Positions 1 to 29,857 of a stretch of DNA of 32,029 nt are shown here, piece after piece. Made by a program: the position numbers and the translations under genes. Below the pieces are notes generated by a model. It had not been told where the DNA came from, did not search any database, and worked only from the letters and a program-made list of their open reading frames with translations. Origin of the DNA: Saccoglossus kowalevskii (lineage: Eukaryota > Hemichordata > Enteropneusta > Harrimaniidae); contig NW_003151255.1 of assembly GCF_000003605.2 (NCBI RefSeq), positions 663,152 to 695,180 on the forward strand, written 5' to 3'. Position 1 is the stretch's first letter. The number at the start of each line of letters is the position of its first letter.

Positions 1-3000
1 ATGAATCATACTGATTATTCATACTGATTGATGTAAATTCGACTTTACCTAAATTGTGGTTCAAGAAAAGCACAAATAATCCAATACTTGAAACAGGCAA
101 GACTAAACAATCACAGAAGGAAATGCTGCAAAGCTAGCTATCTCTCATTGTACATAGTATATCATCCTTCACCACTACACCCTAAGATGTATGTGTTAGG
201 TAGATAGCAAACTCATTATTACCGTGTCACATTGACATATCTGACTTGCTGTAAAATGTTCTACATGTAGGATGTCCATATTTTAATACATTTCTAGTAC
301 AATGCCACCTTCGTTGACGTTGTAATCATCCAATTATAGTAAGCCAAATCCTCAAATTATAATAACATTTCATTTCATGTGATGTAAATGGAATCGACAT
401 CTTGTAATTAGTAATTTAACTTCACTCGAATGACGAGTAATTCAACTCGTCTTAGCTTTTCGCATGTGAGGTGCTTACAGAACACATTACGGGTTAATTT
501 CCACATCTGTGACAGTATCGGTGTGGAAATACATCGCCTATTTGCACTGTGAAAAAGAGATCACAAAGCTAAATATATTCAACATGTATGCATAAATCCT
601 CGAGAAATCATGATGTTATGCATTTATGTATACTAACCACGCCCTTCTGTGAACATTTATGTTGTGAAATCAATTATGGAAATTACTGCGGGTTCTGTCT
701 TTGTACAATATGATATATATATTTCACAAAGGAAAAAAATAGAAATTCATCTATTTTTAAATTAATAATAGGTTGCATTACATCATTTATTCGGCAACAT
801 CATAAGCCACAACCCTTCGGACATTACATGAAGAGGCAATTTAAGTCTCTGATCTTTACTTGTTAATCAAAACTAGTAATCATCATTTTCATATTGGTCA
901 ATTTCAGTTAGATTATTCAATTTCATTAGACTAGAGTCCTTAATAATATCACGACGTGAAAGAAATTTAAATTTGAATGGGGAATAAAACGATATGAAGT
1001 TAAGCATTTCGATTTACATAGCGACTTACACATATATAAAATTCGAAGATGAGCTGCGCGACAACTACCGTCCTTAGAGACATTGTTTCCTTTATTTCAT
1101 CACATTGCATATGTTATTTAGTTGTGCTATTAAACTATTTGATTACAAATATGTCTGAGATAACCAGAGGATGAATGACAATTGAGACTGTTACTAGGCA
1201 ACACACATAATAACAATTGCACTATACATACTATACACTGCAAACTCTTCCATTATTTCATTTAGAGACAAATTGCTGTCCGATTTCGGAAAAGATTAAG
1301 CATTCGCTGATGTCATCGCTTCGAACATGATAACTATGAATAAGTGGAACGGCTTTAAAAACGAACGTCGATTTAGTTATAAAAGCGTAGAAACTATTTT
1401 GCAACATTTTTTGTTCACGCCGCTTTTCTAAATCACTTCCTTTGGCAATGAGTAACGATTAGAATCAGTGCGCAAGGCGTATTTTTAATTCACTCACAAT
1501 GACTTCTTGGTAACGTATAGCGACTGCCATTAAGTAATGTCCCACGTGAGTCGTTACTTCTGCGATGAATAGCACACGTATATACCATGCACTGACAATA
1601 CGATAAAGAGTGATATTCTCGCTCAACCTAGTGTTTAAATTTTTTATAAATTAACTCGTCAAATATATAAAACCAATGCAAAATTAAACCAAGCGCACTA
1701 ATGAGGACAATAAAACTTATAAGCGACGAAAAATGTTGTTGTGGCGAGAACACAACAATGTGTACAATATACATGCCACACGTCACTTAGTACAATATAT
1801 AGCTTATTTTAAAATGTGTTAAGTTAGCATAATATCATGGTGGTTAAATAATGTTCACGTTCACATAATTGCCTTTTAAACACTGCACTGCTATAACAAG
1901 AGACATATCGTTTACCATAAATTGGAGAACAAATATTAACCTAGTAGAATTTGCATCCACTTTAGCTGACATTTTACACTACACATGCGTTCTGTCATAC
2001 AAGAGCGGGCGTTTACAGACGGTAGTGTGAAGTGCGTGGATTAAATCCATACTGGGTGAATCTCGATACCGTTCTCTTTTAATAGGTAGAACGTCTGAAA
2101 CAATTAAATGGTCGATTCATTACACGATTCGCATGGGGATTAATTAATATCAATTGTGTATCATAGTACAGACTGTGTCAACTTACATGAAGCAAATCAG
2201 TATCCACGTCTCGTCGCTCTCTCTGTGTCTCTTCTGCATGACTCGTTAACTCGGCATAATCGACAAGAAAGCATACAATCAACATACATGACAACATTTT
2301 CAGTTTCTTCACTGTCTACGTATTGATGTGTGTAAGAAAATGGTTTTTAGTTTTAGAGTGAACCAACTCAGTTTGATTTGCGATTAATCCCACGTTAACA
2401 TAATTTGACCTGACCTTCGGGTAACCATGGTTATTCACGCATTTACATATTGAAATATACACGCTGACAAATGTAATTCACATTCTAATAATAAAAGCTT
2501 GATACGTTATAAAATAAAAGTGTTCATAATACAACCTAGTGATATACCTTGACGACAATATTATAATATTCAACATCAGAGCTTACTAAAATCCCTCGAC
2601 AATGCCAATTTAATTTTTGTGCCCGAACCTGATAGCCCAAATGTGAAGAAATAGACACATTCTTATCAGCCCGTATCATAATACTGCTAGGACCCGTAAA
2701 AATTCGTACTACATAACATATAGTCACCTTATTTTTTCACAATTTGTTTAAATCTGCGCCCTTCAAACTCGGATGAAAAACAAACCAATCATTACATATA
2801 TTGAGTATAGATTAAAACAATAAACTCAATATGTGATTTAGATTACGATACTAAGGCTCTTTGTATTTTTTGTATGTTTGCCATAAAATTACATTGCAAA
2901 CCTCGTACAATACATTAGTAGAATCGTTTTAACGCAGAATCATGTCTTGTGGAAATAGGATATTGTTCAACAGCAAACTAGACATATTTTTCCAATTAAA

Positions 3001-9093: not shown

Positions 9094-9113
9094 ATAGACA
9101 CGATCGTGTCTAT
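9094..9113. repeat. Perfect 20-base palindrome
   Basis: The sequence atagacacgatcgtgtctat equals its own reverse complement, centred between 9103 and 9104; the next flanking pair (a at 9093, c at 9114) breaks the symmetry. It could be a dimeric protein-binding site or chance. Confidence 0.85.
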
Positions 9114-12057
9114 CAAATAAAATGATGTACTGGTTTAATATTGTTCAGAGATTCTATAAATATAGTGCATTCTATAATATACTATACACAAATGTATCAA
9201 CATATCCGTAGTATCCTCATAAAACATTGAATTTTACAAAATGTTAACATTCTCTCATCATTATAAGATGCAACGATGGAGGATCACACAAAACATCCCT
9301 CTCTATTTTGAAACTTTGCACCTGATGCCATGATTTATATGTATCATTTTATATAAAACGAGTTGTCCATCCACTGTAAGCTTCAAACACATATTTCTTT
9401 TTTCTGAGCGACGATGAGAACACAAGGTAAAAACGTAGAGGCTCATGAGTAGACATTAATTTGTAAAAAAAAATCATGCAACGGCTTCCCGCTTTAAATT
9501 ACAGGTCCACATACGAAACAAAGGCGTTCAATTGTATTTTTTGGTTGGCAAATGCAATTTAGACTCAATTATTTTTTTTAGATCAGTGTCTGTCTGTTAG
9601 TTAAAAGTTATTCAACTTCTGAGGCAATAGTGAAACCAGGTTTAATTGCAGTTGTAACAAATATACCCACTTCATACCATTTACACATATAAGTTCAAAT
9701 CGACCAATAACCATCTCGTTTGCATATGTCGTTTGGAACCTATATTGATGACGAGGCGATGCGAAGAGCGCTCGTTTCAAGGCTATATCTTGTACATAAA
9801 ATATGAATCTTTATCACCCATCAGACTGTGATTCAGTGTTTTCCTTCCAGGCGAATATATTAGCATTGGCGTTGGCATTGAAAATGACGATAACGTGACA
9901 CTAATATTATCTATATTTTTAATGCGTTGTAGAACTTCCTTTGTCGAGGAACATTAACATTAAATAAAATGAAAAAAAAAATCATATAGTCCAGAGACTG
10001 ATTTCACTGTATTTCCAGGGTTCTTCTGAGTGAATTCCTGTTTAATCATATATCTAAGCTGTTAAACGACAATCGTTGCATCGAAATACTGGTAAATTGT
10101 TTAATTAATGTATGGTGACATTCGTTTTTTTTTGTTACGGCGAATAAGTGAGTTCTCAAAAAGTAAGAGTTCGTGTTAAATGTTATTGCTTCACTTTTAA
10201 TGATGCATGTAGCCTAGCATCCCTGATACAGAACTCGGCAACAAGTAAGTAATAACTAACGCTTTGCACACGTCAATTAAACCCGTTTATATCTGTTAGT
10301 TTATTATTCAAATCGACGGATGTTTTCTGCCTTGGGAATTCGATAATGCAAATAATAACTGATATTCTTGTTGAAACGATAACCCACTTGGGGATAATAT
10401 TTCTCAAAAGGGAATATTTACATCAGTGATACTTCTAATACAACTACAGCTGATGAAAAATTATTTTTCTATAAATAAATTCATATTTTATCTGAGAACG
10501 ACTAGGAGAGTCTGTTATACATTAATACTACTGCTTTCGTAACTGATGTGCGAAAATGTACTCAATGATGATTTGTTCTTCATTTTTCACCTTCTAAACT
10601 GTGATGAAATATGTTTATTACGCGTACTTAAACAGACATTTAAAAAAAGCTGAATTTCTAAATATATTTCTGTTTGACTAACACTTTTATTAATCTTAAG
10701 TAAGAAATTATTTGTAGCTTACATTCGATTGAAACCCATTTATCCGATCCATCTACAATGACAATATTGAGGCTGAAGTTAAAACAGAGACAGAGTTATT
10801 TAATTTTTAACTAACAATGTAGAAGGAATACAATGCTGCCTTAGTTAGGGAGCAATTCGATAGTCGCAATATACACCATTTACTGATATTTACCCGTTAC
10901 TAGTGATTTCAAGCATATTTTTAACAGTGGAGGTTTTTCAGTATTCTTTCGAACATACTGATGAATGTATTAGTTATTACATGAGAATATGGGTTTAGGA
11001 TTGGCAACCTACAGTGTTATTTGCTAATGCAATATGTATACACACCTGATAAAAATGTAGGTAAGGATATAAATTGTTACTACTTCTTATTTGCCTTGCT
11101 GCAATATATACCGTCAGTTAGAAAAGTGCACGTGTAGTAATATCATGAACATATATCACGAGTGCAATTATATGTATCGCAACTACTTTTTGTTGAACAT
11201 TTGAAAATAGATAAATGTTGATTTTTTTAGTATAACACTGTTCTGTCATGGTAGCAAAACAGTTTCACTAATTATGATTCCAAGTAATCTTGCAGGTTTT
11301 GTTGGATGTGGGGTTAGTGTCACTGATTTAATGGAATATATAGCAATTTGGTTGATTTTTTGCAAAATTAAACGTATTTGCACAAACTGAAACCGTTGTT
11401 ATATATGCAATTTTTCCAATAAGAAATTTCTGTCTGTTGCAGTTCAATTCTATGTGACTTATGTGTGTATAAATAACCCATTACATGTTTGAAAAACTAT
11501 AAAATGTGAATTGTTCAAATTTGTTATCAACAATACTGTGGTAATGGATGCTTTTAGAATGAAATAATTATTTATTTTTCTATTCATTTTTAACCAGCTT
11601 TTAATTGTTGTCGTTTCGCAGACATCAAGCACTGCTGAGTGCTAGTATCGGAAGTTGGTGGTTATGACGGAGAAACATGTATCTATTCATCATAAAACCA
11701 CTTTTTATCAGTCAGACTACACAATCTGCTAACTACACAGGTGATACGCAATGTTAAAGCATCAATGTTAAAAGGGTGTGCTACGTTTCATAATATTCAA
11801 TACTTTTTGTTTTATTTATTTTAAAACAATATCTTATAAAAGCAATAATACCATATTTATTTGGAGAATCGATGTTAATAAACTGCACATAATTAAATTC
11901 ATATAAGGGTATACGATATGTCTGACCACACTTGACCACAATCTCGTTTGCCAGTGTGTGTTCCACGCGTTCGCCAATTGGACTTGTTCTGATCAATAAC
12001 ATCTCATAACGTCATGAAGAGTGTTGGTATCTGAACAGTTTCGACTGTGAAAGCAGC

Positions 12058-12252
12058 GAGCATGACGAGGATACAGAATCGAGCATGACGAGTACACAGA
12101 ATCGAGCATGACGAGTACACAGAATCGAGCATGACGAGTACACAGAATCGAGCATGACGAATATGCAGAATCGAGCATGGCGAGTGTGCAGAATCGAGTA
12201 TGACGAATATGTGGAATCCAGCATGACGAGTAAACAGAATCGAGCATGACGG
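12058..12252 (+). repeat. 23-base minisatellite, eight full units and a partial one
   Basis: Units of the form gag-catgacgagtacaca-gaatc start at 12058, 12081, 12104, 12127, 12150, 12173, 12196 and 12219, with a partial ninth unit from 12242. Units 2-4 are identical. Unit 1 differs by two bases, and units 5-8 carry more substitutions (aatatg, gtgtg, taaac variants). Because 23 is not a multiple of three, three units make 69 bases, so the minus strand reads as a 23-residue peptide repeat in more than one frame. I take these open frames as a by-product of the repeat, not as genes. Confidence 0.95.
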
Positions 12253-14397: not shown

Positions 14398-14556
14398 CAG
14401 TGGCGGATCTAGGGGGTCTTGGGGTCGGGACCCCCCCCCCCCTCGTTGAAAAATGTATTAAAGTTGTTTTTGTGTAATATAAAAAAATCATTAACTTAGT
14501 TTATATTTCATTTTAAAGTTTGGATCCCCCCATAAAAAATCCTGTATCTGCCTATG
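14398..14556. mobile_element. hAT-like miniature element with degenerate inverted ends
   Basis: The left end cagtggcggatctagg (14398) and the right end read in reverse, cataggcagatacagg (14556-14541), agree at 11 of 16 positions. The CAGTGGCGGAT...GGGG terminus is of a kind seen in hAT-type non-autonomous elements of invertebrates (general knowledge, not searched). The interior contains a 12-base C run (14431-14442) and a g-rich/c-rich pair near each end; no coding capacity. The 8-base flanks (aatgatac, gatatatt) do not match, so a target-site duplication is not shown. Confidence 0.45.
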
Positions 14557-14828
14557 GATATATTTACTCACGTTACTCAGCTATGCCATGTTCGGTGGAT
14601 TGACACAAAGCATACACAATTCACATTTAAGTATTTTCTCTTCCAAAACTCGCAAACATATGTACATGCTCATATAGTCGTCGTCTTTATGATCAGTTTT
14701 GATTTGTTAATGTTGAAGTAATTGTACTGTGAATAAATGTACGCATGTACAAATTTAGGGCTGACATCGATACTGCTCTGAAACGTTAGTATGTATAAAC
14801 ATATTCAATGCCACATGTGTACATACAT

Positions 14829-14938
14829 CAGAGGCGGCGGCATGGGGTGGGGTTCTACTCACCACATCTTACGACGCTACATAGGCGCAAGTGGTCGCGC
14901 AATTGTTTTCCCGGGGACCCCCGGTGCCGTCGCCACTG
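14829..14938. mobile_element. Second hAT-like miniature element, about 110 bases
   Basis: The left end cagaggcggcggcatggggt and the right end read in reverse, cagtggcgacggcaccgggg, agree at 15 of 20 positions. They share the CAG.GGCG start with the element 270 bases to the left. It forms an unusually GC-rich island in AT-rich DNA. The flanking 8-mers (acatacat and cacatctg) differ, so insertion is not proved. The plus-strand open frame across it (14791-15066) has no recognisable domain. Confidence 0.4.
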
Positions 14939-17397
14939 CACATCTGTTCGAACTACTAGACCTTAACAATTGCCACCACTTTTCACTTGCTTTGAAATTA
15001 CATAACAAATATTTATCCATGTCATTTTGTTGTTATAGTTTGATGAACGAATGTTTCCATCGCTAAACCACACAGGCATAAATATATAATAGCAATAATC
15101 CCGACCGAAGTTGGTATACCACTCTATAATTTATTTCATATCGATATGGGTATTGCTTAAGAACTTTCTTCTGTGGTAAGCAACTTATGCATTATGGCAT
15201 ACATCTTGGTCACAGTTGTTAAAAAACTGCTATGTGTGAATTTTCATGCAGAGCTCATGTAGATAGTCCTGATTGAGCGGGAAACAAGTTAGTTCATGGT
15301 AGTTATCAGTTTTTCAAAATAAGGCGTTTTTTATCAGTGAACAGAATAAACTACTGCTAAATATAAAGATAAAGCATTGAAACTAAGATCAGATTTGTAT
15401 GTACAGAAAATGTTATTTTCATACATACTTACATTATTATAAATAATATTATTGTCTTTTAGCATTTTAGTTTCGTTATTCCGTAGTAAGAATGTAATAA
15501 CCATGCAACGTACATTTCAAAAGTCAATAATACCTTAACATGAACGATCGTTAAAATATCATTCTTAATACACGCATTAATAACGCAATTGCGTGTAATG
15601 TACACTCAGTAACTAGTAATGCTTTTCTCATGCTTTGTTGGGGAGTAATATACATGCATTGAGAAATATTAGCGTATAATATATTGAGTATTGAGCATAA
15701 TATAGAGTCTCTGGATTGCCTGGGACTATTAAATTAACTAGTTTCTTGTCTAGAATCGGATTTTGAACCATTGGCGTGGACCATGTGAATGTTGCTTCAT
15801 AGACTCGATAAATCCGATAGCACATAGTGACGAATTGAAAACTCCATTTTTGGCAATGTATACGTTTCATACTGTTTATCACCGTAATAAAAACATAATG
15901 TGTGCTCTTTTTAGCGCGTTCCGTATCTCATTCGCTTATATAAAGCTATGCCTTGCAACCGTTTACCGACAGTTCGTCGCATGGATGTTGGAATTTGTGG
16001 AGATTCTTAGATATGAATATATTCACAGGTACATGGACACATTAATAACTTTTCTCCTAACTGGTGGGTAATTCTATCAGCGGTCTTTCCAAATCGCAAG
16101 CGAATTTAAGAACCGGTTTGCCAAGGAATATGTATCGAATATGTATGTACGAATCTCACGTAAAGCCAAGTTATGCTACTTGAAAACGGAAATGTACCTC
16201 GGATAATGTCAAAATCAAACCGCAGGACAAAAGATTTTCCACTAAAACATAAAACATTTTATATTATTTTAATTACACTCTAGTAATTTTATACAGTGAA
16301 GTATGCAAAGTTCAGACTTTGCTTATGCACGTATATATAAAATGTTGTGAACACTGAGCGCCAGCTTTCTGTCAAATTCAAATAATGTCTACACCCATAC
16401 GCATATACCTTACGTGACATAGCAACTGCGATCACCTACTTATTAAAATGAGGCGCTTGCTGATTGGATATATTGAAGTAATTCATTTATAATAATTAGA
16501 ACTAACAATAACTTCATAATATCATTTCCGGATTGGTCAATCACAACATCAATTTGATTTGTACAAATGTATATTTAATAAAACGATTATAATTACCACA
16601 ACTGCTCTTCACTACAATTTCAATCGCAAACACTATTATTACAACTATTAATTACACTATATGATATATTCTTGAATATTTGTTGTTTTGCGTTTGTTTT
16701 ATTCATTGCATAACATCACTTTCTGTATCAGTTAACTACATACTATACAGAATATTTTCATTTTTAAAATTCGGTCACATTGTTCAATAACCTTTACTCC
16801 GTATTAAATTATATGGGTCATTTTGTCAAATATGGGATTGTCTGATCACAATTAAAATTGACTTCTGTATAATGAAACATACACATACTACTAGGTGAAC
16901 AGGTAGTTTATTTACGATCGATTGAAAAATATAATTGTGACAATTTAATTGTCAATTGTCAGAAAAAAATAATCCACTTCACTGAAAATGCCTTATCCTA
17001 AGAGCTCTAGTAAATATGTTTGTAGGATATTATATAGTTTTGTTCATATATAATATATATTAAATGTTATACATATATGAAAATGACGGTGAAGCACACA
17101 CAAAATCAAGGGTATCTAAGAACTTATTTTGTACCACATTCCGTCTGTCTTGCTGATGGCAAAGCACTCGTCAGTAGCTTAGTAGACCGATGTCAGACGT
17201 GTCAGTTACTGTATTGCCTGCAAATACATGTTTGTCAAAGCATTAGTCTTCGAAATCTAACACATTATTGCGAATGTTGTACATGTAATCATGAGGTTGG
17301 ATGTTTTAATGGATGAGTCACCACCCTGGTATTACATATATAACCATATAACTGCTTTAGTTCTATAATTGTTTTAGTTCTTGTAGCGAAATTGTAC
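14939..17397. other. Non-coding stretch, one doubtful lectin-like patch
   Basis: Nothing firm is seen. A minus-strand open frame around 15720-15830 contains 'FTWST...VPGNPE', which recalls the third part of a C-type lectin domain, but splice phases do not fit the exon at 17.4 kb (see rejected items). Confidence 0.45.
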
Positions 17398-17505
17398 TGT
17401 CCTATCCATACATAGTCATCACATTGTGTACATGAACTCAATATAAGGTCCCGGATGAAATCGTTCGTTGACTCACCATCTACATTCACTAACGATGCGC
17501 CGGCA
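17398..17505 (-). CDS. CTLD-like exon downstream of the LINE
   Basis: This is a 108-base exon bounded by an acceptor (ctactacag, ending 17506) and a donor (gtacaa from 17397). It enters and leaves in phase 2. The translation contains GASLVNV, ESTNDFIRDLI and DDYVWIGQ, which follow the middle of a C-type lectin domain (G-x-x-L-V-x-[IV], E-x-x-x-F-[IL], W-[IL]-G). It carries two extra cysteines just before the WIG motif. It could be part of a further CTLD of the main gene upstream, now separated by the LINE, or belong to a neighbouring lectin gene. Its flanking exons were not identified with confidence; a 30-base candidate at 18161-18190 would keep phase. Confidence 0.5.
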
Positions 17506-18160
17506 CTGTAGTACATTGCATAAGTATAAATATTTAGTAGAATGCTAACTCAGTATATGTACAAATTCGACATATTGCAAATATTTGTTATATTTGTTAT
17601 AATTTTTCTTAATATGTCGTTATCATCTTTAAATATCATTTTTATTTTAGTCATATCGGTATTTATATAATTCGTATGTGCTTTTTGTAGTTAGTGTATT
17701 CGATCAGTAATATAAGTTGAACTAAAATGTACTTACATTTCGCATATATTAATGTTTTCTGCATAGTTTGCAACGAATGAAGATGTCGAATACATATAAC
17801 AGGTATCGTTTGACAGTTGCCATCCTACAATTCAGTCGTTAATGAAATAAGATTATAAGATAATAAGATTATGCATCGGTAATAAAAGCGGCCATAAAAG
17901 AAATGATCATGCTCTACATGAAACGTTCGTACTTTAGTAGTTACATAGTTTTTACAGTGATGATAAATGATCATGACCATATAATAAGATACCTATTTTC
18001 TGGTCTGAACCAGATTCATTCATGACCGTGCAGTCAGCATTGTTTTATTTTATCTCTATTCGACACCTTATAGTGTCATCGTGGAATACTGGTTAGGACT
18101 AACGGTTTTAGCCAGTCGTGAAAAAAATATTATTATTAGAGGATTTGATAAATTACTTAC

Positions 18161-18566: not shown

Positions 18567-20169
18567 TCACAACTGGTAGTCGTTATATTTAAAAGTATTG
18601 TACACACGCACCCACTTCTCTGCAAGCTCAGATTGCTTTCCGTTCATACATGCACTTTGATTTTCAACAATATTTTACAACGATAGATGTAGTATCGATC
18701 CATCCGGAGAAATGCATTAAATAATATATTGGCATGATTTTCGACATCACCAAGAATACATTTCATTGCATTTAATGATATGTTGGAATGTGTTATGGTA
18801 CGATACCACTGTAATGCGCATGACCAGAATTTTGAAATAAAAACGCAATCCCAGAAGAGATGAAAATAGTCCTCTATTACTTCCTTACAAAACGTACATA
18901 CAGGATCATCAATCATATTCCATGGGTGAAGAAGACGATTTGATGGCAAAAATTTCATAATAAGCTTGTATTGNNNNNNNNNNNNNNNNNNNNNNNNNNN
19001 NNNNNNNNNNNNNNNNNNNNNNNNNNNNNNNNNNNNNNNNNNNNNNNNNNNNNNNNNNNNNNNNNNNNNNNNNNNNNNNNNNNNNNNNNNNNNNNNNNNN
19101 NNNNNNNNNNNNNNNNNNNNNNNNNNNNNNNNNNNNNNNNNNNNNNNNNNNNNNNNNNNNNNNNNNNNNNNNNNNNNNNNNNNNNNNNNNNNNNNNNNNN
19201 NNNNNNNNNNNNNNNNNNNNNNNNNNNNNNNNNNNNNNNNNNNNNNNNNNNNNNNNNNNNNNNNNNNNNNNNNNNNNNNNNNNNNNNNNNNNNNNNNNNN
19301 NNNNNNNNNNNNNNNNNNNNNNNNNNNNNNNNNNNNNNNNNNNNNNNNNNNNNNNNNNNNNNNNNNNNNNNNNNNNNNNNNNNNNNNNNNNNNNNNNNNN
19401 NNNNNNNNNNNNNNNNNNNNNNNNNNNNNNNNNNNNNNNNNNNNNNNNNNNNNNNNNNNNNNNNNNNNNNNNNNNNNNNNNNNNNNNNNNNNNNNNNNNN
19501 NNNNNNNNNNNNNNNNNNNNNNNNNNNNNNNNNNNNNNNNNNNNNNNNNNNNNNNNNNNNNNNNNNNNNNNNNNNNNNNNNNNNNNNNNNNNNNNNNNNN
19601 NNNNNNNNNNNNNNNNNNNNNNNNNNNNNNNNNNNNNNNNNNNNNNNNNNNNNNNNNNNNNNNNNNNNNNNNNNNNNNNNNNNNNNNNNCATACATACCC
19701 TAATCTTTTCATTATTCGGCTTTGTGTTTTTCCAAGTAGATGGAATGGCTGATACCAACTGATTATACTCGTGATGTGTACATAACTTACCAAACTTTAC
19801 AATAAATTCATCATATTTCATCAATGTACAAGTCTCACAAAATAAATCATTGATAAAGATAATACCAGCATCTACACATTGTTTTCATACAATAGGGTCC
19901 CTGTTGATGCGCACATTGGAATTGTTCCAAATTATTTCCTTCAAAATGTTATATAATCTATCAATTGGGGTATAGTTATATTGCAGCCATGGATAAATAA
20001 TTTCTTTCAAAAAAGCGGAGGGTAATGGGTCGAGAGTACTATGGTCTTTTTTTTCTAAATTTGCGAAAAAGAGTAAAATACCACCAAATTGACCTAGTAT
20101 AGCTTTGTAATATACACTACAGAAAGATTTTGTATTACAATAAAGTCTCGGCATCCAAGCTGCTTTCAA
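18567..20169 (-). pseudogene. LINE ORF2 C-terminal part, interrupted by the gap
   Basis: Upstream of the gap, 19885-20169 encodes a region with MPRLYCNTKSF and NDSN-type linker text as found after the reverse transcriptase of L1-like ORF2. Downstream of the gap the frame to 18644 carries a knuckle C-x2-C-x8-H-x4-C (VCTFC...FHLFWDC), the C-terminal CCHC motif of this group. A frame change near 18650 leads to a short tail with EKWVRVYN and a stop at 18567-18569. What lies in the 716 unknown bases cannot be said. Confidence 0.75.
18974..19689. other. Assembly gap, 716 N
   Basis: This is a run of N inside the LINE. Open frames across it are artefacts of translating N. The gap probably reflects repeat content; its stated length may be an estimate. 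Confidence 1.
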
Positions 20170-20301: not shown

Positions 20302-21920
20302 TTAAAAAGCCGCGTCCGGGGAGGGAAAAGACATAAACAAATAAGTAAATTGCGAAATCGCCAAAGATTTTATAATCGTTATTTTACCATATACCGTCAG
20401 ACCCATGCCCTTCCATGGCTGCAACAACTTTCTCACCTTTTCAATGCGATAATTAAAATTCAATGTAGTTATTTGTGAATAATCAACAGGAAGATGTATT
20501 CCAAGCACATCAACAGAAACATCAGCCCAGGTTACAGGATGAGATGTTTCAATAGTAAAGTATTTTTTTATAGACCCAACCCTCAAGACTTTGCATTTAT
20601 CATAATTTGGTTTCAACCCAGAAATAATTGCAAAATTAGACAACATACTTAGCAACGAGTTAAGTGATTCACGGGAAGGATACGTTGGGAAATTCGTGTC
20701 ATCCGCATATTGAGAGATCTTATTCTCTATGGGACCTGTATATAAACCTTTAATTTTGTCACAGCGTCTCACTCGATTTGCCAAATGTTCAACACAAATG
20801 ATAAACAGGTAAGGTGACATGGGGCACCCTGTCTAACACCACGGGAGAGACCAAACTGCATTGAAATATTACCATTATTGATTATACAGCTACTAATATC
20901 CCGGTACATGAGTTTCACCCAGGTTACAAATGATTGACCAAAATTAAAATATTCTAAACTTTTTATAATTAAATGCCATCTCAACTTATCAAATGCTTTT
21001 TCAAAATCAGCTATAAAGACAAATCCCGATTCATCATTTTTTCATACGTTAATTTCCAGCAACCTTCGAATATTGTCTACAATAAATCGACCATGAATGA
21101 ACCCAGTTTGGTCTTCATTAATTATATCTGAGATCACATGTTACACACGAAGAGAAAGACATATTGCAAGGATACGGACATCACAGCACAAAAGAGTTAG
21201 TGGTCTCCAATTTTTTTTAAAAACACTGGGTCTTTGTCTTTTCCCTGGGCATCCTTTTTGAGAAGCAAAGTTAGTAGCCCGGTTTTTGTGACGATGACAT
21301 TTGACTGCATTCATATGAATATTCAAAACAGTGAAGCATGTTGGGGGCTAACTGTGTGAAAAAGCACTTATAAACTTCCACCGGAATACCATCTAAACCA
21401 GGTGATTTTCCAGGTGGAAAAGAGTTGATTGCATTACGTAACTCGGACACTGTGATCATACCCTCGCACAATGACTTTTTCGATTCACTAACGGAATTGT
21501 AATTTACAGGGAAAAATTCACCATAATCTTTCTCTGATGGTTCAACTTCTCCATCCAACGAATATAATTTGTTATAAAAATCCACTACCTCGTTTAGAAT
21601 ATCTTCCGGATTACTAATTATCGTACCATTTGTTAGTGATAATTTGTTTAGATTCTTTCGAGAACAATTTCTTTGAATTAAATTTAAAAAATACTTAGTT
21701 GGCCGTTCCCAGCTAACATCCAGCGTGCTTTCGCACGGATAATGGGACCAGCTGTTTTCATTGAATAATATGATCGTAGTTCATCCTGTTTTATTGCGAG
21801 TTCTTGCAAACTGTCGACGTTAGGGATATCTACAAAGTCAATTAAATTTTGTAATTTATGGATTTCGTCAGGGAGTTTCTTTTCCTTTTGTCTATATTGC
21901 TTACATTTATATGAACTATA
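20302..21920 (-). pseudogene. LINE reverse transcriptase, frame-broken
   Basis: The fragments follow the order of an L1/Tx1 reverse transcriptase. At about 21700-21760 there is a linker with RAKARWML, continuing as ERPTKYFLNL in another frame. At 21271-21585 are FYNKLYS and GKSPGLDGIPVEVYK. At 20769-20984 is GLSRGVRQG. At 20302-20820 are MSPYLFIICVEHLANR and the catalytic ISQYADD (residues 38-41 of that fragment). The step between GVRQG and MSPYLF is a one-base loss near 20820-20830; another frame change is near 21710, and more lie near 21000-21300. The catalytic aspartates are still present, but the reading frame is not intact. Confidence 0.88.
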
Positions 21921-22099
21921 TTTTATACAATGACCTTTAAATGCACATTTAAAAGCATCCCAACATTGTGTGGAGTCGAGGTTCCAGTATTAACTTCAAA
22001 GAATTCTGTAACAAATTGCTTCGACTGGTTGAGAAATTCACTGTCACTCAAAAGTGAAGTATTAAAGTGCCAATACCCTTTACCACGCGGCAAAATGCT

Positions 22100-22850
22100 A
22101 GTTTCAATACCAACAGATATCAAACAATGGTCAGAACGGAACCGTTCACCTATAGTTGCCATAGTAACCTTTGCTACAAAAGAGAAAAGGATGAAAATAT
22201 AATCAATTCGACTAGCTCTTGCCCCCTTCGCCAGAAATACCGTCTAGAGGTCTGATTGCGTAATCGTCAAATGTCCGTTGCATCCCAAGTGAACATTAAA
22301 TTATTAATACTATCTCGTGATTTTGGGTGATAATTATGTAAATTAGTACCCGCTCTGTCAATAGATTCATTTAACACGGTATTAAAATCCCCACAGACAA
22401 TTATTTCTAAAGTATGTTCACAAAATTCACTAAGATTTGAGTTAACACTATCAAAACAATCAGGACTGTCTACATTAGGTCCATATAAACACATCAAAAC
22501 AAAATGAAGTGAATAAACTGTTATGTCGGCCATAATCCACCGACCATCTGTATCATGTCTTATATTGTTAATTACATACGAAAAGTTGTTTTTCAAGCAA
22601 ATATCTACCCCGCGTTGATTGGTTGCAGCATGACTAAATATTATTTCGGCCCCCTGATTTATATAGCAATACGTAGTTGATACAATAAGATGGGAATTTT
22701 GAAATCAAATTCAAATTTCAGACCGAATGTCTGATTACCTTCTTGACAAATAAGGAAATTATCTTCACTACAATTGGTTCGTTTCCAGAAATAGTTGAAT
22801 TCGTAATTCAGTTCTGAAATATAAAAGGATTTATCACAAAATGTTTAAAT
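22100..22850 (-). pseudogene. LINE endonuclease domain, frame-broken
   Basis: This matches the N-terminal apurinic/apyrimidinic-type endonuclease of non-LTR elements. Visible are ICQE (the position of the catalytic glutamate motif, usually LQET), GAEIIFSHAATNQRGV, MCLYGPN, VCGDFNTVL (the GDFN motif) and RSDHCLIS (the SDH motif) near the end. The first part is in a different frame from the next, with a change near 22690, and the SDH part lies in a third frame. It cuts target DNA for insertion in intact family members; this copy cannot be translated whole. Confidence 0.85.
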
Positions 22851-23014
22851 TGTAGCCTTTGCATTTGTATATAAGTGCATTTTAAGTATAGCTATTCTCC
22901 ACATCACGTAGTGTTCCATTCACAGTTGTTTAACATTTACAAATACACGGTATTTGTGACTTAAATGCCAACCCCACGAACCTACGAACCTACGCAATCC
23001 CTAGACTGAGGCGT

Positions 23015-23141
23015 CTAACTGGTGAACATTGCTTCATCTTGTACAATTGTTTGATCCGTATACACCAATGCATTTACTACATCGCCATAGTGCAGTCCAA
23101 ACCACCAATTTTTAGTACTTTCACTCAGCAAAGCTTGGTGC
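23015..23141 (-). CDS. Second CTLD, middle exon (3' limit uncertain)
   Basis: After an acceptor (tattttctcag, ending 23142) the frame reads HQALLSESTKNWWFGLHYGD, followed by VYTDQT and DEAMF, then a stop at 23015-23017. WWFGL sits where CTLDs have W-[IL]-G-L, and VYTDQT where they have W-x-D-G-T. It follows naturally after RLATIENRGTQ of the exon at 24017, but the acceptor is phase 2 and that donor is phase 0, so a direct join shifts frame. The true donor is not clear: candidates are a GT at 23018-23019 or earlier ones near gtaaat. A final CTLD exon with the last cysteines was not found. Confidence 0.45.
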
Positions 23142-26100
23142 CTGAGAAAATACTAATATTAGAAAGTTCCACCATTATTTAATTTTATTTGTATGCTACA
23201 TTTTGCAGCTTTGTCACAATATATGAATGTTTATATAAATTATATTATGTGTATTTGGTCATTCCGATCCGAGCTCTAGGGATTACATAATTCCATACTG
23301 TTACTTGCGGAACATTTGCGCATGCGTCAGTGCATGTGTAAACGTTCGGAAACTTATTTAGAGAATGGTTTAAAAAAGAGCGTGCACATACAGTGTACAA
23401 TGTTTGTGCAAAGAGTAATGATTGGTTGAAAGCATCGTCAACCATTAACATATTTACGGATTTTATGTAGGACTGTAAATCAGGGAACCATCATTGCAAT
23501 TGAGCCAGCCTCCAAATTATGAAGCTGTATTATTTGTTAAACTTATTTGATGTCTTTAACATGAATAATAAAATTAGCTATGGAATATAATCAGCAGTTG
23601 AATCGTTTGTGGGTTATGGCGGCATAATAATTAGATCATCAAGATTTCGTGCGTTGGCTTGAAGGCAAATTACGAAAAAACATTAAAACGGCAAAATATT
23701 TCCAACCACAGTATGTCAAATGTATCTACAGAGCGGTACTCTATCTAAAAGTTAGTATTGAGTATAGTATAATAAAATACCCCCCCCCCACAATTGCGCA
23801 TAACATTTGAATACTTGCTAAAGAGTTATGTTTATTTTATGTATTATAAATCATACCTGGGTACCTCTGTTTTCTATTGTCGCAAGTCTTCCGCCAAGTC
23901 GTGCACAGGCCATATTTCCATAATTCCAACTATGTAACTCCTTGATTTGATGATAACATGTTTGGTTATATGTGACCCCCTTGCCACCAATACCACATCC
24001 ATTATACGAAGTCGTTACTGTAAATAAGGAGCAAATAAGAGTGTAACACAAAAACATAAGTTGCTAGGTCCATGCGTCGCGATCACAGTTAACAACATTG
24101 ACCTCTCAGCAGTGGTACCAGTCGTCGGAAATAAGTAAGCATACCTCGCTGACTAGTCTAACCCATCATGAATGGTGTCATATCGTAATACATCTAAACT
24201 TGACAAGTGATCAATATAAAGTCGTAATTAGAAATGCTAGTCTCGCATAATTTTCTTGACAGACAAATCAGATTTTGAAATTATCTGACAATGTCTTCAA
24301 AATATTTCTGAAAGTCTTAAGCAGTCTATTTATATTTGCAGATAGTGAGCTATGTCTTAATCGAAAATTGTCATATGACCATATATAAACCATAAGCTGG
24401 AGCGGAGGGAATGTTACTTGAACGATACGAGAAATTGATAAATTCAGAATTGCATAATCCCGCTTCCCATACAGCCTGGTGTGTAAGCCATTAGGTTAAT
24501 TTAAACTACAAGATCAAGGTATGAATCTGTATCTATGCTCAATAACTAAAACAATCGTTCCTATTTAAAGCGGGAAGGTCATCACCTGCGCACGCGCGGG
24601 AATTGAGTCCAAAGCGACAATATCAACACATGCTAAAAACGCAAAGGCTCGTCCGTGGATGTTTGTTTGCATGCGCAGGTGACGACTCGCCCGCTTTAAA
24701 AGTCAAGAGATCACCAATGTACCAGAACTTGTTGTTAAAGATTCCATCATTTCAACTTAAATAAATTCAGCCCCATACGAATACACGAATAGAAGAGGTA
24801 TATATTACATGTCCATTGGACCACCAATTGTAAATTGTAACCTCTAATTCGCCAAACGTGACAAATACATTGTCAATGAGAACATTAACATCAGTATGTT
24901 TATGTTTTGCATAAATTCTTTGCTACGGAAAGTATTATTTAATTAATCATTAACTTAAATGGGCAACTCAAATAACATGCACTAATTAATTATATACAAT
25001 AATTAGTTTCTATTTGTTCAACAAACCTATTTCACATCACATATTACTTACCGCATATATCATACAATGTCACTGCGGTATACGTTTTTGAAGGAGACAC
25101 GTTGTGGCTATTCGAGGCGTAAATACAAGTAGCCACATTGTGAATCACATCATCCATAGTCAGCATGCTATCCCAAAAGTTAAACTGTGATATTTCCCCT
25201 GTGAATGCTCTGTGGGCTTGGAATGAACCGGCAATTAAATCTTGGTACTGTCCTATAAGCATTAGACCGCTGCCTTGAATGTAATTACCAGTTTGCAATC
25301 CTATACCCAAACTCTTTAATACTCCATTTTTATAAACCTTCCAGTCACCGGTGTAGCTACTCCAAGTAACACACATATAGTGCCAGATACCATCAGCAAA
25401 TACAACACCAGTAGGTCCAGTGAATTGGCCATTAATCCTCAAGCGTAATGATGTATAGTCGTATACTAGTAATTCATTTGTCTCATCATTAGTTGAATAT
25501 GATACGAGTATGCCCTTATTTTGTGAGGTCGAAATCATCCACATGCATGTAGACATTGCGTACAGATCGGGAATTGGTTGCAGTAGAGTCACGTTTGAAT
25601 AAATGTTCAGACGATATTTGATGTTACTTTATAATGACAAAATAATAAATTAAATCAAAGCGACCATATTTCGTATATAAAATATTTACCCGAATAAGCT
25701 ATTTTCCGAAGAAAGCTTGGTATTTATTTAGTAACTGTTTCAAAATAGATAGCAGAGGTAGCCACATAGCTGGAATTGGTGTAATTTCAGACACACGAAC
25801 ATAAATTACATCATGCAACTTGAGATTCGAACCTGGGATTTAATTTCCCTGTTCTCAAAACAAATAATAAAAAAATCGAATTACGTAAATCGACATAGTT
25901 GTTAATACCATACACGAGTCTAAAGTCAACACAAGAAGGAAAATCACAATAGTCGGGAGTAAATCCGCACCATTCTTGTGGAGAACAACAAGGATTTGTT
26001 CCGTTCGGATTACATTCAGCTGACTGCCCTGTGTATACCACCCAATCTCCACCACAGCGTAGATCAGATCTCCATTGCGGCAATGAGTTTCCTAATCAAC

Positions 26101-29100
26101 GGTACATGCAATATATATAAGTATAATTTGACATGTGTCGGAATGCATTCCAAATAACACAAAACAAATTAAGTCGATTTCAGTGAGTGAGATGAGTGAG
26201 ATTTTAGCCAAAAAATCGTTAACGCCATGCTTATGTTTGAGGAAGTGCATTACAATTGTATAAACCACTGCAGCATGAAGACAGTACATTCCCACTTTAC
26301 AGTCTCTTCGATGGTATGATGGTGTTTGTAATTCCAATTCGTCAGGCATAAATGCTTTTAAAGCATTAAAATAATTTGTAATAAATTGACGTTGAATATC
26401 TTGAAATATAATGTAGATACTTTGTAGTCTGATAGTAGCTACCAATATATAAAGCGATACAGAGTGCATTACATAGTGGGTAATATTTACTATCATTTTG
26501 CTTTATAAATTTAAACCGTATATTGCATTATTCCGGGGTAAATTTCACTTCTCATGTATCCTGTTAATATCTTATTTAATGTTCAACCTATCATTGACTA
26601 AGTTTCTTTAATTTTATATTAATCATCAAAAGGTCCGTTCAAGTATAGCGTCACGTTCAGCTAAACTGTTATATTGTAAAGATGTATGGGTATTTTTCAA
26701 GAAAAATTCCTACGGACAATAGCAACATGAAAATTACCCATGATTATAAATTGACGGTATTCAAATAAAAGATCTAACACACCATGAGTGTTTAAGCGTG
26801 TACGTATGGTCCCTATATACAAAACGTTACTTTCATCTTTACTATTCAGAACACATCATATCATGCATAGAGAGAACAGTATCCCAAAACATTATTTTGT
26901 GACACATTGAATTATATCTAATCAAGATGTTTTACCCCGTTATACTGCTGATATTGAAGATTCGACATAATGTGTAGATCACGGGTGTCCGATTTACTAT
27001 GAATATCTCAGCTAGGGGATTTCTTTATTGATAGATAAAAATCAATGTCTCTAATAACATTCATTTCCGGTTTTGTCAAGTTGACAGTAATTGTGGTATT
27101 TATTTTATCCAGCAATCATAAACTTCACTGAAGCGGCACTGAACACGGTTGGTAATAAAACTGAGTGCATATTTTACCATCACTATTCTTCAACTTCTAC
27201 ATTTCGATGAGATCAGTTATGTTCAACGCACTTGTGTTCAAAGAACAAGAACACAACTTAATAATGTTACTAAACGTAAAAGTGTTTACGAACATGCAGA
27301 CTTAGAATATGCATCTAAATACTACAAGATATGACCCGAAACAAATAGCATTCTACTGAGTGTTTTAAAAATAACATCACAATAGGTGCAAGTTCTAATA
27401 AATTCCTATATGAGCTCATTTATCCATTATTTCAATAAAGTATATATTTATAGCAATAATAACAGTATTCATATCTGCACAATGATAAGAATATCTTACC
27501 TACAAGGTTATCAGGTGTACATATGTATTTAGACAAAGAATTGCACCATAAGTCGTCAATCTTGAATCCGTATCGACCATTCGTAACTATAATGACAAAT
27601 GAAATCATCATACTATCCATGCTAGATAATGAATATTCAATGCAGCTTATACGTACAGGTCCATTATTCACTATTTAATAGCTGTGTCTATATATAAACG
27701 AATTGATTTGCTCCATGAAACTAAACATTGTTTCTAGTTCGTAGCAATACTATTTTTTTCGCAAAAACAGCTTTAAACTCTTTGTTTTGTTATATTTTGT
27801 TTTGAGAGTCTTGTCATTTCTATAATGCAAATATAAATATTTACAAAACACTCTCTTAAACAGTGCTGTGGATTATTGTCTCCTCCATTATTCAGTTCAT
27901 CAACAGCAAATATGTCCATTTCTTTGTCGATCAACGTTCCTACTTCGTCACTGTGCCTGTATTGTCCTTCAATTTCTAAATCAGTGACACCAATCCAATA
28001 CTTGTCTTCTTTGAGTCCACCATATGCTTGATGAATATGATACATAAGTCGTTCCTCGAAAAAGAACAGAATCATACATACATAACTATCAACAGGACTT
28101 AGCTATTAAAACAGAATTCAGAAGTTAAATTATTTTAACTGTTAGGATATTAATGTACAAAAAGCATTCTGATATTAAATAAAAAAAATTACCAGAGTGG
28201 ACTTGTCGTGTATTTGGGTTAGATGACCGCCACGTAGCGTACAGTCCTGTTCTGATTCCATCCAGGATTTTGCTTCTGATGAAAACCATACGCACAATCC
28301 GTCTTCAAAAAATATTCCAATTTCATCCCCGAATCGGCACATATTTAATTAATATTTCCCTTGGTTGACCGACGTCATAGAATTGAGACCAAACATCTGG
28401 ATCAGCTGTGAAACACCACGGTCCCAGACTGTTGTCTGGATTACGACACTTGTTGTGATCTCCAATTCCAAATGATGGATAATTTTGTGGCAGTACTGAG
28501 TGTTCATGGGGATATTGTTCTGACCAGTTTTGACACGTTGTTCCATTCATAGTAATATTAACGTCTCCCCGGTAGTCTCTGCCGTCTTTTTCGTAATATT
28601 TTCGTCTTTTTCTTTCATCTTCCGCTGCAAGACCTCCAGTTATATGGATGTTATAAATTGCATGTTGTTTTTTAGAAGAGCAATCTATACTATTCAAGGA
28701 TAATTATTGTTCATTGCCAATGGTGATATGACAAATATTTTTATTCTCGGCAATAAAACAATGCCATATTACTTCATTACTCAAATACGCGTCATTGACT
28801 GACATTTTTTTAAAATGAACACGCAGTTTTTAATTTCCATGGCATTTTGGAACATTTTGTTACAACATATAACATGATTGTCGATTGTAATAATGTAATA
28901 ATCACATTGTCTTACAGATTTTAACATTCACTACATCACAATTAGGACCAGTAAATACATCAGTACGACACAGGCATATATATCCCAATTCAGTACACGA
29001 TGTGTGACATACAGCTGGTGATTGACATGGATTATTTACACAGGGATTACTATCTGGTGTGAAGGAGGGACATACCTATTAAACAAACATAATATAATTA

Positions 29101-29857
29101 TTATTATTATTATTAAAGTGATGGCAACAAAGTTCCACTCATAAGTGTACTTATGTTGCAATCATGATATACAGTATTTTACAATGTGTGTACAACGCCC
29201 AATTTATTGGGAATATACACATTCATTCGCGTATTCAGGCATCATTTGACTAGTAACATTCAAAACAATATAACACATGTTTTATTAATAATTTGTAGGA
29301 AAGAAAAAACACACTTCCAGCTCATAAGTTGTATATCGAATAGTTTCATATCACATTTCACCTGAGTAGAATTTAACAGCACATTATTACACCGATGCGT
29401 CATACGCACGATATTATATAGTAAGAACAAAACCTTTTTTACAATTATTTTTTTTACGATATCAATAATTCATAGTTAGCAATGTATCCGCTGATGTCAT
29501 TGCCTGGTTGCTGTCGGCATGCGTTACCCTCAACTATTCTGGTAAACATAATTCACTGATCATGACTCACACTATACATTTATCTCATGGTATGGCGTTA
29601 GTATTGAACAGATGGAACAAATGGCCCACAAAACAATGAACCAACATTTTTTTAATTATACAAGCAGGAATGTTAAATTCGGGTAATCAGTAAATAAATG
29701 AAAATGTATGTAATTTCCTTTACCACCAAATGGTTTCTCAACTCACCATAATTTGCTCTGCGTTCCTCCTTGGTCTGTCATTACGGTGTCTTCCCGTTTG
29801 ACTGCCCAGTTCCATGGTACTGCAGCAGACAAACAACAACAATTGTAGCAACCCCAT
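23015..29857 (-). CDS. Secreted mosaic lectin: EGF-kringle-CTLD-hevein-pentraxin-CTLD
   Basis: This intron-split gene was assembled by eye from splice sites and frames. Order of modules: signal peptide; EGF-like; kringle; C-type lectin domain over three exons; hevein-like cysteine module; pentraxin domain; and the start and middle of a second CTLD. All modules are extracellular, so the product should be secreted or an ectodomain; no transmembrane exon was found, but the 3' end is missing. Phases agree at exon 1/2 (0), EGF/kringle (1), CTLD1 part 1/2 (0), CTLD1/hevein (1) and pentraxin/CTLD2 (1). They do not agree at hevein/pentraxin and CTLD2 part 1/2, and CTLD1 part 2/3 needs a weak donor. 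A role in glycan or surface recognition is inference from the domain families. I recognise no named orthologue. The exons are entered separately. Confidence 0.75.
23780..23789 (+). repeat. C10 homopolymer
   Basis: A run of ten C in AT-rich intronic sequence. It is similar to the C12 run at 14431-14442 but without the hAT-like terminus beside it. Confidence 0.9.
23857..24017 (-). CDS. Second CTLD, first exon
   Basis: This 161-base exon lies between acceptor ccttatttacag (ending 24018) and donor gtatga. It enters in phase 1, which matches the pentraxin exon, and leaves in phase 0. The frame shows NGCGIGG, YNQTCYH, SWNYGNMAC and RLGGRLATIENRG. These are the first cysteine pair, the W-x-x-[AG]-x-x-x-C helix and the G-G-x-L-A-x-I strand of a long-form C-type lectin domain. 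It is the best-conserved lectin exon in the gene. Confidence 0.8.
24563..24701. mobile_element. MITE with TTAA ends, copy 2, in an intron
   Basis: The element lies between TTAA at 24565-24568 and TTAA at 24696-24699. The left terminus tttaaagcgggaaggtcatc continues cacctgcgcac; the right terminus read in reverse is tttaaagcgggcgagtcgtc, continuing cacctgcgcat. The 32-base ends differ at 6 positions. The whole is only about 139 bases, with no coding capacity. It shares the (g)ggcggtagtcgtc..gcatgcg type of terminus with the element at 5825-6251. It sits in the intron between the pentraxin exon and the second CTLD. TTAA target sites suggest piggyBac or Kolobok mobilisation. Confidence 0.75.
25052..25626 (-). 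CDS. Pentraxin domain exon
   Basis: A complete pentraxin (concanavalin-like sandwich) domain of about 191 codons lies in one 575-base exon, with acceptor attataaag and donor gtaagt. Visible in order are STCMW (first conserved Cys), IWHYMCVTWSS, WKVYKNGV, GSGLMLIGQYQD, RAFTGEISQFNFWD, and a C-terminal CIYAS and YDIC. The family signature is H-x-C-x-[ST]-W-x-[ST]; here the residue two before the Cys is Tyr, so it is a near match. Against C-reactive protein, the calcium motif 'EQD' is YQD and the later Gln appears as Arg, so calcium binding may be altered. Exit phase 1 joins the CTLD2 exon. Entry phase 2 has no clear partner in the hevein exon. Confidence 0.9.
25909..26091 (-). CDS. Hevein-like cysteine-rich module exon
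   Basis: After acceptor gttgattag (ending 26092, phase 1) the frame reads LPQWRSDLRCGG, QSAECNPNG, PCCSPQEWCGF, DYCDFPSCVDFR. The spacing C..C..CCS...WCG....C....C resembles hevein/type-1 chitin-binding domains, and the WR-x-D-x-RCG start with CVDYR-like end is a form I associate with invertebrate multidomain proteins. One usual Cys in '[HY]C-x-C' appears as Phe (YCDF). Entry phase matches the last CTLD1 exon. The donor is uncertain: gtatta at 25908 gives phase 1, while the pentraxin exon needs phase 2. Chitin or GlcNAc binding is possible but not shown. Confidence 0.75.
26092..26496 (-). other. Unexplained 134-codon open frame in an intron
   Basis: The largest open frame in the intron between CTLD1 and the hevein module. 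It begins MIVNITHYVMHSVSLYILV and contains hydrophobic stretches and FMPDELELQTP. I recognise no domain and no splice logic linking it to the gene, and it runs into the hevein exon's acceptor. It may be chance or a relic of an inserted element. Confidence 0.2.
27500..27586 (-). CDS. First CTLD, third exon
   Basis: This 87-base exon lies between acceptor tttgtcattatag and donor gtaaga, phase 1 at both ends. The frame reads TNGRYGFKIDDLWCNSLSKY then ICTPDNLVG. This is the final strand set of a C-type lectin domain with its last two cysteines (LWC and YIC). At the WND calcium/sugar motif the sequence is IDD. The donor joins in frame to the hevein-like module. Confidence 0.8.
   Translation of the reverse strand, partial: LRMVDTDSRLTTYGAILCLNTYVHLITL
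27850..28054 (-). CDS. First CTLD, second exon
   Basis: After acceptor ctgttctttttcgag (phase 0, matching the previous donor) the frame reads KYWIGVTDLEIEGQYRHSD, then DELNNGGDNNPQHCLRE. WIGVTD, the GQYRHSD turn and the NNGGDN-x-x-x-HC loop are core CTLD features. At the EPN/QPD sugar-specificity position the sequence is ELN. The 3' limit is unsure: a donor at 27849 (gttttg, weak) keeps frame with the next exon, whereas gtaaat five bases on (27844) looks better but leaves phase 0. Confidence 0.8.
28193..28302 (-). CDS. First CTLD, first exon
   Basis: The frame reads DGLCVWFSSEAKSWMESEQD, then CTLRGGHLTQIHDKSTL, ending at donor gtaatt in phase 0. C-V-W-F-S, W-x6-C and GGHL-x-x-I are the opening helices and strand of a C-type lectin domain. 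It lies only 67 bases from the kringle and in another frame. A short intron (28303-28369) with acceptor tattttttgaag would join it in phase 1; otherwise a frameshift separates them. The frame also stays open about 50 bases further upstream (to MCRFGDE). Confidence 0.75.
28370..28684 (-). CDS. Kringle domain exon
   Basis: The exon starts after acceptor gaatagtatag (phase 1, matching the EGF exon). Visible are CSSKK near the start, then GRDYRGDVNITMNGTTCQNW, YPHEH, HNKCRNPDNSLGPWCF and DVWSQFYDV. This is a clear kringle: the YRG, TCQ-x-W, PH-x-H, N-x-CRNPD and PWC blocks are all in place, about 75 residues. Three of six canonical cysteines are present (C2, C3, C4). C1 is Tyr (KYYE) and C5 is Tyr (QFYD), and C6 is not at its usual place. 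Kringles bind peptides or lysine-type ligands; the fold here would depend on only one canonical disulfide. Potential N-glycosylation sites are NIT, NGT and NWS. Confidence 0.88.
28916..29075 (-). CDS. EGF-like domain exon
   Basis: This 160-base exon lies between acceptor ttgtttaatag (phase 0) and donor gtaaga (phase 1). The frame reads VCPSFTPDSNPCVNNPC, QSPAVCHTSCTELGYICLC and RTDVFTGPNCDV. Cysteine spacing C-x4-C-x5-C...C-x-C-x8-C is that of an EGF domain. Two extra cysteines are present, one near the exon start and one between C3 and C4, which could pair with each other. Both junction phases agree with the neighbouring exons. Confidence 0.85.
29097..29115. repeat. (ATT)n microsatellite
   Basis: About six ATT units lie in the intron just upstream of the EGF exon's acceptor. 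Confidence 0.85.
29747..29857 (-). CDS. Exon 1: start codon and signal peptide
   Basis: The ATG at 29855-29857 sits in a good context (aaaacaATGG, A at -3, G at +4). It opens with MGLLQLLLFVCCS, a short n-region and leucine-rich core typical of a signal peptide, with likely cleavage around the following TMELGS. A basic stretch with RHRNDRPRR follows, which could be a furin-type cleavage site. The exon ends at donor gtgagt in phase 0 and joins the EGF exon in frame. The longer open frame over the same bases (29781-29981) is in a different frame and is rejected. Confidence 0.75.

Follow-up and report, generated by a model that had tools for sequence, protein, structure and literature searches.

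Kremen1 and Kremen2 carry a kringle followed by a WSC domain, and the Kremen1 ectodomain is described as a rigid unit of kringle, WSC and CUB domains (PMC5014086). The kringle-WSC succession is shared with seven loci of a gene family to which the locus studied here belongs. This locus, copy W, lies on the minus strand of a stretch of 32,029 nucleotides (the window, C4124:663152-695180); genome-wide comparisons covered a 572-Mb assembly of 4830 contigs, and their match counts are lower bounds. In W the modules follow one another as signal peptide, EGF, kringle, first C-type lectin-like domain (CTLD1), hevein-like module, pentraxin and CTLD2. Very probably, W is a recently inactivated member of a clustered and dispersed gene family for secreted multi-lectin proteins, which share a ground plan with a variable slot between CTLD1 and CTLD2. 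The family differs from Kremen in having an EGF module before the kringle, CTLDs in place of CUB, and no membrane anchor seen in the apparently intact paralogue A. Pfam detected no CUB domain in the product of A at E up to 0.1, and A does not show the Kremen plan of kringle, WSC and CUB with a transmembrane segment; in W, moreover, the WSC domain has been lost. The WSC domain itself gave only weak matches in PDB (E 0.024 and 0.026).

Other modules have well-described relatives. The hevein-like exon of W matched the chitin-binding domain of amphioxus BbtPGRP3 (PDB 4z8i and 4zxm; E 1.8e-8 over 54 residues), both carrying the motif WRSD.RCG...CCS..WCG. According to PMC4610682, that domain binds chitin and broadens the enzyme's substrate range; there the module is fused to an amidase, whereas here it stands between CTLDs, and in W one of its eight cysteines is missing. 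For the pentraxin exon, the best PDB match was neuronal pentraxin-1 (E 7e-31). The Pfam Pentaxin domain, which scores 68-75 bits in W, is shared with neuronal pentraxin, PTX3 and CRP, but in W it forms one exon among CTLDs and lacks one glutamate of the CRP-type calcium site.

At the level of gene construction, the closest parallels are lancelet mosaics, described in PMC4284660 as recombined phase 1-1 module exons with transposable-element fragments nearby. The present family resembles them in its phase-1 style of shuffling and in the transposable-element fragments near it, while the lancelet genes probably belong to another phylum and use other domains. Banyai and Patthy (PMC4967905) warn that mosaics of this kind in lancelets may reflect erroneous gene prediction, and note one Lectin_C fusion that expressed sequence tags contradict. 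This caution about transcript-free mosaics applies to the predicted structures of A and of a further copy, G, too. No description of the architecture was found in titles and abstract openings of openly licensed PMC papers: the individual domains are all known, and their combination was not found in that literature.

Copy W and its lesions

The exons of W, in order of transcription, are as follows.

29747..29857, minus strand: exon 1, signal peptide and dibasic stretch RPRRN; 111 bp, donor GTGAGT, phase 0
28916..29075, minus strand: EGF exon, phase 0 to 1; 87% amino-acid identity to A over 53 residues
28359..28624, minus strand: kringle exon, 5' end set by the acceptor homologous to that of A
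28193..28342, minus strand: CTLD1 exon a, truncated at its 5' end and fused to the kringle
27856..28054, minus strand: CTLD1 exon b (CT1b), by comparison with A
27500..27586, minus strand: CTLD1 exon c (CT1c), phase 1 to 1
25885..26091, minus strand: hevein-like exon, phase 1 to 1 with the donor homologous to that of A (C/GTAATT, slash at the exon end)
25052..25626, minus strand: pentraxin exon, open reading frame intact; acceptor phase 2, donor phase 1
23857..24017, minus strand: CTLD2 exon a, phase 1 to 0
22990..23152, minus strand: CTLD2 exon b (CT2b), TAG at 23017-23015
22739..22813, minus strand: CTLD2 exon c (CT2c), beyond the end of the feature first noted
17737..17824, minus strand: CTLD3 exon b, matched to CTLD3 of the family
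17402..17505, minus strand: CTLD3 exon c (CT3c), matched to CTLD3 of the family
17088..17217, minus strand: remnant of CTLD3 exon d, 3' end approximate

When the three minus-strand frames of 22.8-32.0 kb were compared with Pfam, the kringle (67.1 bits, E 1.7e-18) and the pentraxin (68.1 bits, E 1.1e-18) were recovered, while the CTLD (19.2 bits, Lectin_C cut-off 22.6) and the chitin-binding module (7.2 bits) stayed below cut-off. Taken singly, the pentraxin exon scored 74.6 bits against a Pentaxin cut-off of 25, which places it in the pentraxin family, and the kringle exon matched plasminogen and other kringles; the hevein-like exon reached 23.0 bits with Chitin_bind_1 (E 9.8e-5, cut-off 27.8), the EGF exon 15.3 bits, also below cut-off, and CT1b had no Pfam match. 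A Lectin_C score above cut-off was found in A and G, and not in the exons of W. The weakly scoring exons are nevertheless secured by homology, since A, on the same contig, has the identical order of EGF, kringle, three CTLD1 exons, hevein and three CTLD2 exons. Of the series of domain exons in the original prediction, kringle and pentraxin were thus confirmed by profile, and EGF, CTLD and hevein by their likeness to A. Its phase-1 borders at EGF/kringle, CTLD1/hevein and pentraxin/CTLD2 were seen in W, and 29857 stands as the gene start, being the ATG of the signal-peptide exon, which equals exon 1 of A in length (111 bp) and phase.

What does not hold is the working protein that had been expected from this locus. 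The kringle and CTLD1 exon a, 16 bp apart with the borders as set here, are fused out of frame with no donor between them, and the kringle frame terminates at a TGA (28325-28323). In A the same gap measures 2.65 kb (611178-613829) and includes the WSC exon, which is missing in W; a WSC exon separates kringle and CTLD1 in A and in three further copies (E, F and H). The kringle adjoining a CTLD in W is therefore a deletion scar, left where the WSC exon was lost and the kringle fused to CTLD1, and neither a direct kringle-CTLD order nor a splice junction at this point can be upheld. A short intron between the two (GTCAAC/TTGAAG, donor and acceptor) would keep the frame and was considered; it was rejected for its poor donor and for deleting CTLD residues that are conserved in A.

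Further lesions are spread along the gene. The CT1b donor has changed from GT to GA (27855-27854; GAGAGTGT against GTAAGTGA in A), as has that of CT3c (17401-17400). CT2b is interrupted by a premature TAG (23017-23015) where A has CAG and another copy, B, encodes Gln. Position 23015, previously taken as the end of the gene, is this stop, and CT2c and the remnants of CTLD3 continue beyond it to about 17088. In CTLD3 exon d the frame is interrupted by a TGA (17173-17171) and shifted with respect to A, and a motif search for the 30-bp exon CT3a from 22739 to 17000, across a run of N, returned no candidate. Kringle domains have six cysteines in three disulphides; the W kringle, although it scores 67.1 bits, is without Cys 1, 5 and 6 when the acceptor homologous to that of A is used, as here (a second acceptor further upstream would add one cysteine), and A keeps all six. 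Hevein-type chitin-binding domains have eight cysteines and a CCS..WCG core, and the W exon retains the core with one cysteine fewer than A. Finally, the sole acceptor that opens the pentraxin frame is in phase 2 and thus out of frame after the hevein donor homologous to that of A, so that the predicted hevein-to-pentraxin join fails in phase; an alternative hevein donor after 25914 (GT/GTATGG, phase 2) would fit it.

With an out-of-frame fusion, two GA donors and premature stops, W is a pseudogene and not a functional protein-coding gene, and these lesions rule out an intact gene in the window. It is a family member by descent, recognizable by its order and its CTLD3 remnants, and degenerate, without WSC and without a kringle/CTLD1 border. 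Most likely W would yield no full-length protein, but either no product or an aberrant one.

The gene family and the slot between CTLD1 and CTLD2

Paralogue A lies on the plus strand at C4124:607286-622130, about 71-86 kb from the start codon of W. It was found by tblastn with the EGF, kringle, CTLD1a-c, hevein-like and CTLD2a exons of the window, and the rest was added from further matches. Its predicted 15 exons, with all 14 introns GT-AG and phases consistent, give a single frame of 760 amino acids from ATG to stop, encoding signal peptide, EGF, kringle, WSC, CTLD1, hevein, CTLD2 and CTLD3. In its product Pfam recognized three Lectin_C stretches totalling 94.3 bits, a Kringle (66.9 bits) and a WSC domain (40.8 bits), with Chitin_bind_1 (15.3 bits) below cut-off. 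The matching exon order of this apparently intact copy bears out the view of W as one gene, and a division into two separate genes was rejected, as all modules of A lie in one open frame. The proposed secretion is likewise in agreement with the signal-peptide exon and with A, whose frame ends after CTLD3 and in which no membrane segment was seen by eye. Mis-joining would hardly produce a frame that runs through 15 exons in consistent phase and has most of its modules repeated in that order in other copies.

EGF, kringle and WSC occur together at seven loci (96 matches of 137 candidates, E up to 1e-5), and with W, B and G the family comprises at least ten. Copies E (C3324) and H (C4732) have the order EGF-kringle-WSC-CTLD1-CTLD2-CTLD3, and C4732 holds three more EGF-kringle-WSC loci, one of them with stops. 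In copy F (C1599), EGF, kringle and WSC are present, with 78-88% DNA identity to A over the aligning pieces; a lone extra EGF exon, 88% identical to that of A, lies on the same contig (C1599:277221-277388) on the strand opposite to F. B, on the minus strand at C4124:655-647 kb, retains hevein (with one TAG), CTLD2 and CTLD3, and represents an inverted duplicate of the region of A (C4124:603170-622600) of about 19 kb, partly hidden by N, whose upstream part is positions 1-8082 of the window. Besides A, G alone was spliced in full to a reading: at C4124:776115-782330, its ten predicted exons are open from the ATG, all introns being GT-AG, in the order signal peptide, EGF, WSC, CTLD1, pentraxin, CTLD2. 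Pfam recovered Pentaxin, WSC and Lectin_C (two stretches, 52.8 bits) from the product of G; neither kringle nor hevein was found at the corresponding places, and the 0.67 kb following its CT2c gave no match to a CTLD3 exon. The original prediction had overlooked the WSC domain, the third CTLD and the family as a whole; its proposal of exon shuffling fits well, both W and the family being built from phase-1 modules.

The members differ most clearly at the phase-1 slot between CTLD1 and CTLD2, which is empty in E, F and H, holds hevein in A and B, pentraxin in G, and both in W. In G the pentraxin is a 585-bp phase 1-1 exon, in frame between CT1c and CT2a, which upholds the placing of a pentraxin within such a mosaic. 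No pentraxin was matched at the slot of B, whose intron is free of N. Between CTLD1 and CTLD2 of F, neither hevein nor pentraxin was matched, and hevein is absent from the C1599 matches; the Pfam scan of the F flank spanned L041:1-4500, so the absence of hevein from F rests instead on the exon-match searches. As F is without hevein although it is nearer to A than W is, loss and gain must both have occurred, unless hevein was gained twice.

Modules of these kinds are numerous in the genome, with at least 86 kringle matches, at least 96 pentraxin matches and at least 40 matches to the hevein-like exon (40 candidates scored), three of the last in the C4124 cluster. The closest match of the W pentraxin, on C997 (47% identity), adjoins part of a CTLD and a fibrinogen domain, and the pentraxins of W and G are 34% identical. 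These two may or may not have a single origin; in a tree of 13 rows, drawn from 101 matches, 5 of 10 inner branches were starred, and the G branch exceeds 3 changes per column. The slot may be a recurrently used cassette site, where paralogues in tandem or inverted arrangement, subject to gene conversion, would acquire, drop and swap hevein-like and pentraxin modules, forming an evolving repertoire for secreted recognition in which dead copies such as W are part of the turnover; we offer this as a tentative idea, possible though on balance doubtful.

Some further arrangements of the same modules were observed elsewhere. C3618 and C1505 (L031, L034) carry kringle-kringle-pentraxin-hevein in the same order, one pentraxin with a stop, and C997:802500-807500 (L033) has pentraxin, a partial CTLD and a fibrinogen C-terminal domain consecutively on one strand. 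Eleven hevein-like exons with a spacing of ~1 kb (55.3-57 bits against the window exon) lie at C120:895-11350, and a tandem pentraxin array, 31 among the matches listed and also spaced by ~1 kb, at C4257:167750-202482.

The remaining features of the window are given below.

2187..2297, minus strand: exon 1 of B (signal peptide); the following B exons fall in an N-reading stretch outside the window
10751..11668, plus strand: relic D, degenerate CTLD1c and CTLD2b, perhaps CTLD1b, in the orientation opposite to W
20302..22704, minus strand: open-reading-frame fragments of a long interspersed nuclear element (LINE)-type endonuclease/reverse transcriptase in the CTLD2-CTLD3 intron of W, with GDFN and YADD seen by eye

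The LINE-type fragments extend to about 18644 and are split by 716 consecutive N at 18974-19689. Relic D matched CT1c at E 2e-5 and 2e-4, CT2b at E 0.003 and CT1b at merely E 0.14, with a summed tblastx E of 4e-8. In plus-strand frames 1 and 2 of window positions 1-14900, Pfam returned just a sub-threshold Ndufs5 over a tandem repeat, and in the three minus-strand frames of 8000-16900 nothing at E up to 0.1. A 23-bp tandem repeat of 8.5 copies occupies positions 12057-12251. Apart from the window, the mitochondrial contig C4830 (L038) was seen to carry COX1 on the strand opposite to the flanking COX2 and ND1; in these three genes ATA stands at conserved Ile and AAA at conserved Lys sites and TGA reads as Trp, with one AGA at a Ser-like site in ND1. 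Such a code fits hemichordates and neither echinoderms nor lancelets, and the source is probably a marine animal related to the acorn worms.

Age of the inactivation and alternative readings

Pooled over ten exons, A and W differ by 1.06 synonymous (dS) and 0.29 nonsynonymous (dN) substitutions per site, two exons being saturated at synonymous sites. In alignment score, W is barely further than A from the outgroup copies (795 against 849 to H over six exons, 643 against 751 to E over five), which indicates that inactivation was recent. The pattern suggests that W was under long purifying constraint and then decayed recently. The EGF exon (29048-28911, against C4124:610285-610422 in A) stands apart, with a dS of 0.17 against 0.75 to saturated in the nine others, and this sharply bounded similarity suggests that the inverted paralogues have undergone gene conversion here.

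It could be argued that W is a working gene after all, encoding one secreted EGF-kringle-CTLD-hevein-pentraxin-CTLD protein: its modules keep their order on a single strand, phase 1 is shared across several junctions, the reading frames of the pentraxin and hevein exons are open, and comparison with A gives an overall dN/dS of about 0.28. We consider this extremely improbable, given that in the same gene the kringle runs out of frame into CTLD1, CT1b and CT3c end in GA donors, CT2b contains the TAG, the homologous hevein donor does not suit the pentraxin in phase, disulphide cysteines have been lost and CTLD3 is broken. Remodelling by exon skipping, to give a short secreted EGF-hevein-pentraxin protein, would avoid part of the damage. 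Splicing would run from signal peptide and EGF to hevein (phase 1), from the GT/GTATGG donor to the pentraxin (phase 2) and through CTLD2 to the TAG; EGF does end and hevein start in phase 1, the pentraxin frame is open, and the alternative donor after 25914 repeats an 8-mer of the kringle donor of A (GTATGGTA). Such a transcript must, however, skip the kringle/CTLD1a fusion, CT1b and CT1c, leaves hevein with an unpaired cysteine and deprives CTLD2 of about its last quarter, and we regard it as very unlikely.

The pentraxin might also be a gene of its own, or a chance insertion, inside an intron of W and unrelated to the mosaic. The slot has no pentraxin match in A, B, E or F, nor anything better than E 0.56 in H, the W acceptor is in phase 2, and the nearest relative sits on another contig, in the pentraxin-CTLD-fibrinogen cluster of C997. 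On the other hand, G has its pentraxin in frame and in phase 1-1 at the identical CTLD1/CTLD2 junction, and the W exon lacks a signal peptide of its own and has a donor whose phase suits CTLD2, which makes this alternative unlikely.

Several observations nonetheless weigh against W as a recently inactivated member of a family of secreted lectins. Its dN/dS of about 0.28, well below 1, covers its whole history and is that of a recently working gene. Single lesions may be assembly errors, yet they are of several kinds and affect six exons. A stop is present in B too, and W is therefore not the sole disabled copy. The structures of A and G are themselves predictions, spliced in silico. Moreover, sugar-binding C-type lectins have EPN or QPD together with WND motifs; by eye, CTLD1 of A has EPS, and CTLD2 and CTLD3 show no clear motif. 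The W pentraxin lacks a calcium-site glutamate at the E138 position of CRP, and glycan binding is therefore no more than a prediction.

The ground plan predicted for the family reads signal peptide-EGF-kringle-WSC-CTLD1-slot-CTLD2-CTLD3, with phase-1 module borders after the signal exon. Intact members may be soluble pattern-recognition proteins, secreted by virtue of their first exon, in which the CTLDs and the optional hevein or pentraxin module would, to judge from the domains, bind microbial or environmental glycans and chitin, while the EGF-kringle-WSC head might serve as a rigid protein-docking stem, its kringle-WSC part as in Kremen. The domains would suit the innate-immune or matrix recognition role suggested earlier.

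Read from a single window, a deletion scar, the kringle beside a CTLD, was mistaken for a new architecture, when the real novelty was adjacent and lies in the pentraxin slot and the EGF-kringle-WSC-CTLD plan. Should the proteins be produced, they would constitute a class of secreted recognition molecules not found in the literature searched. Overall, a series of genes within one genome, in which one intron carries differing modules, makes exon shuffling directly datable and testable, instead of being deduced across phyla.

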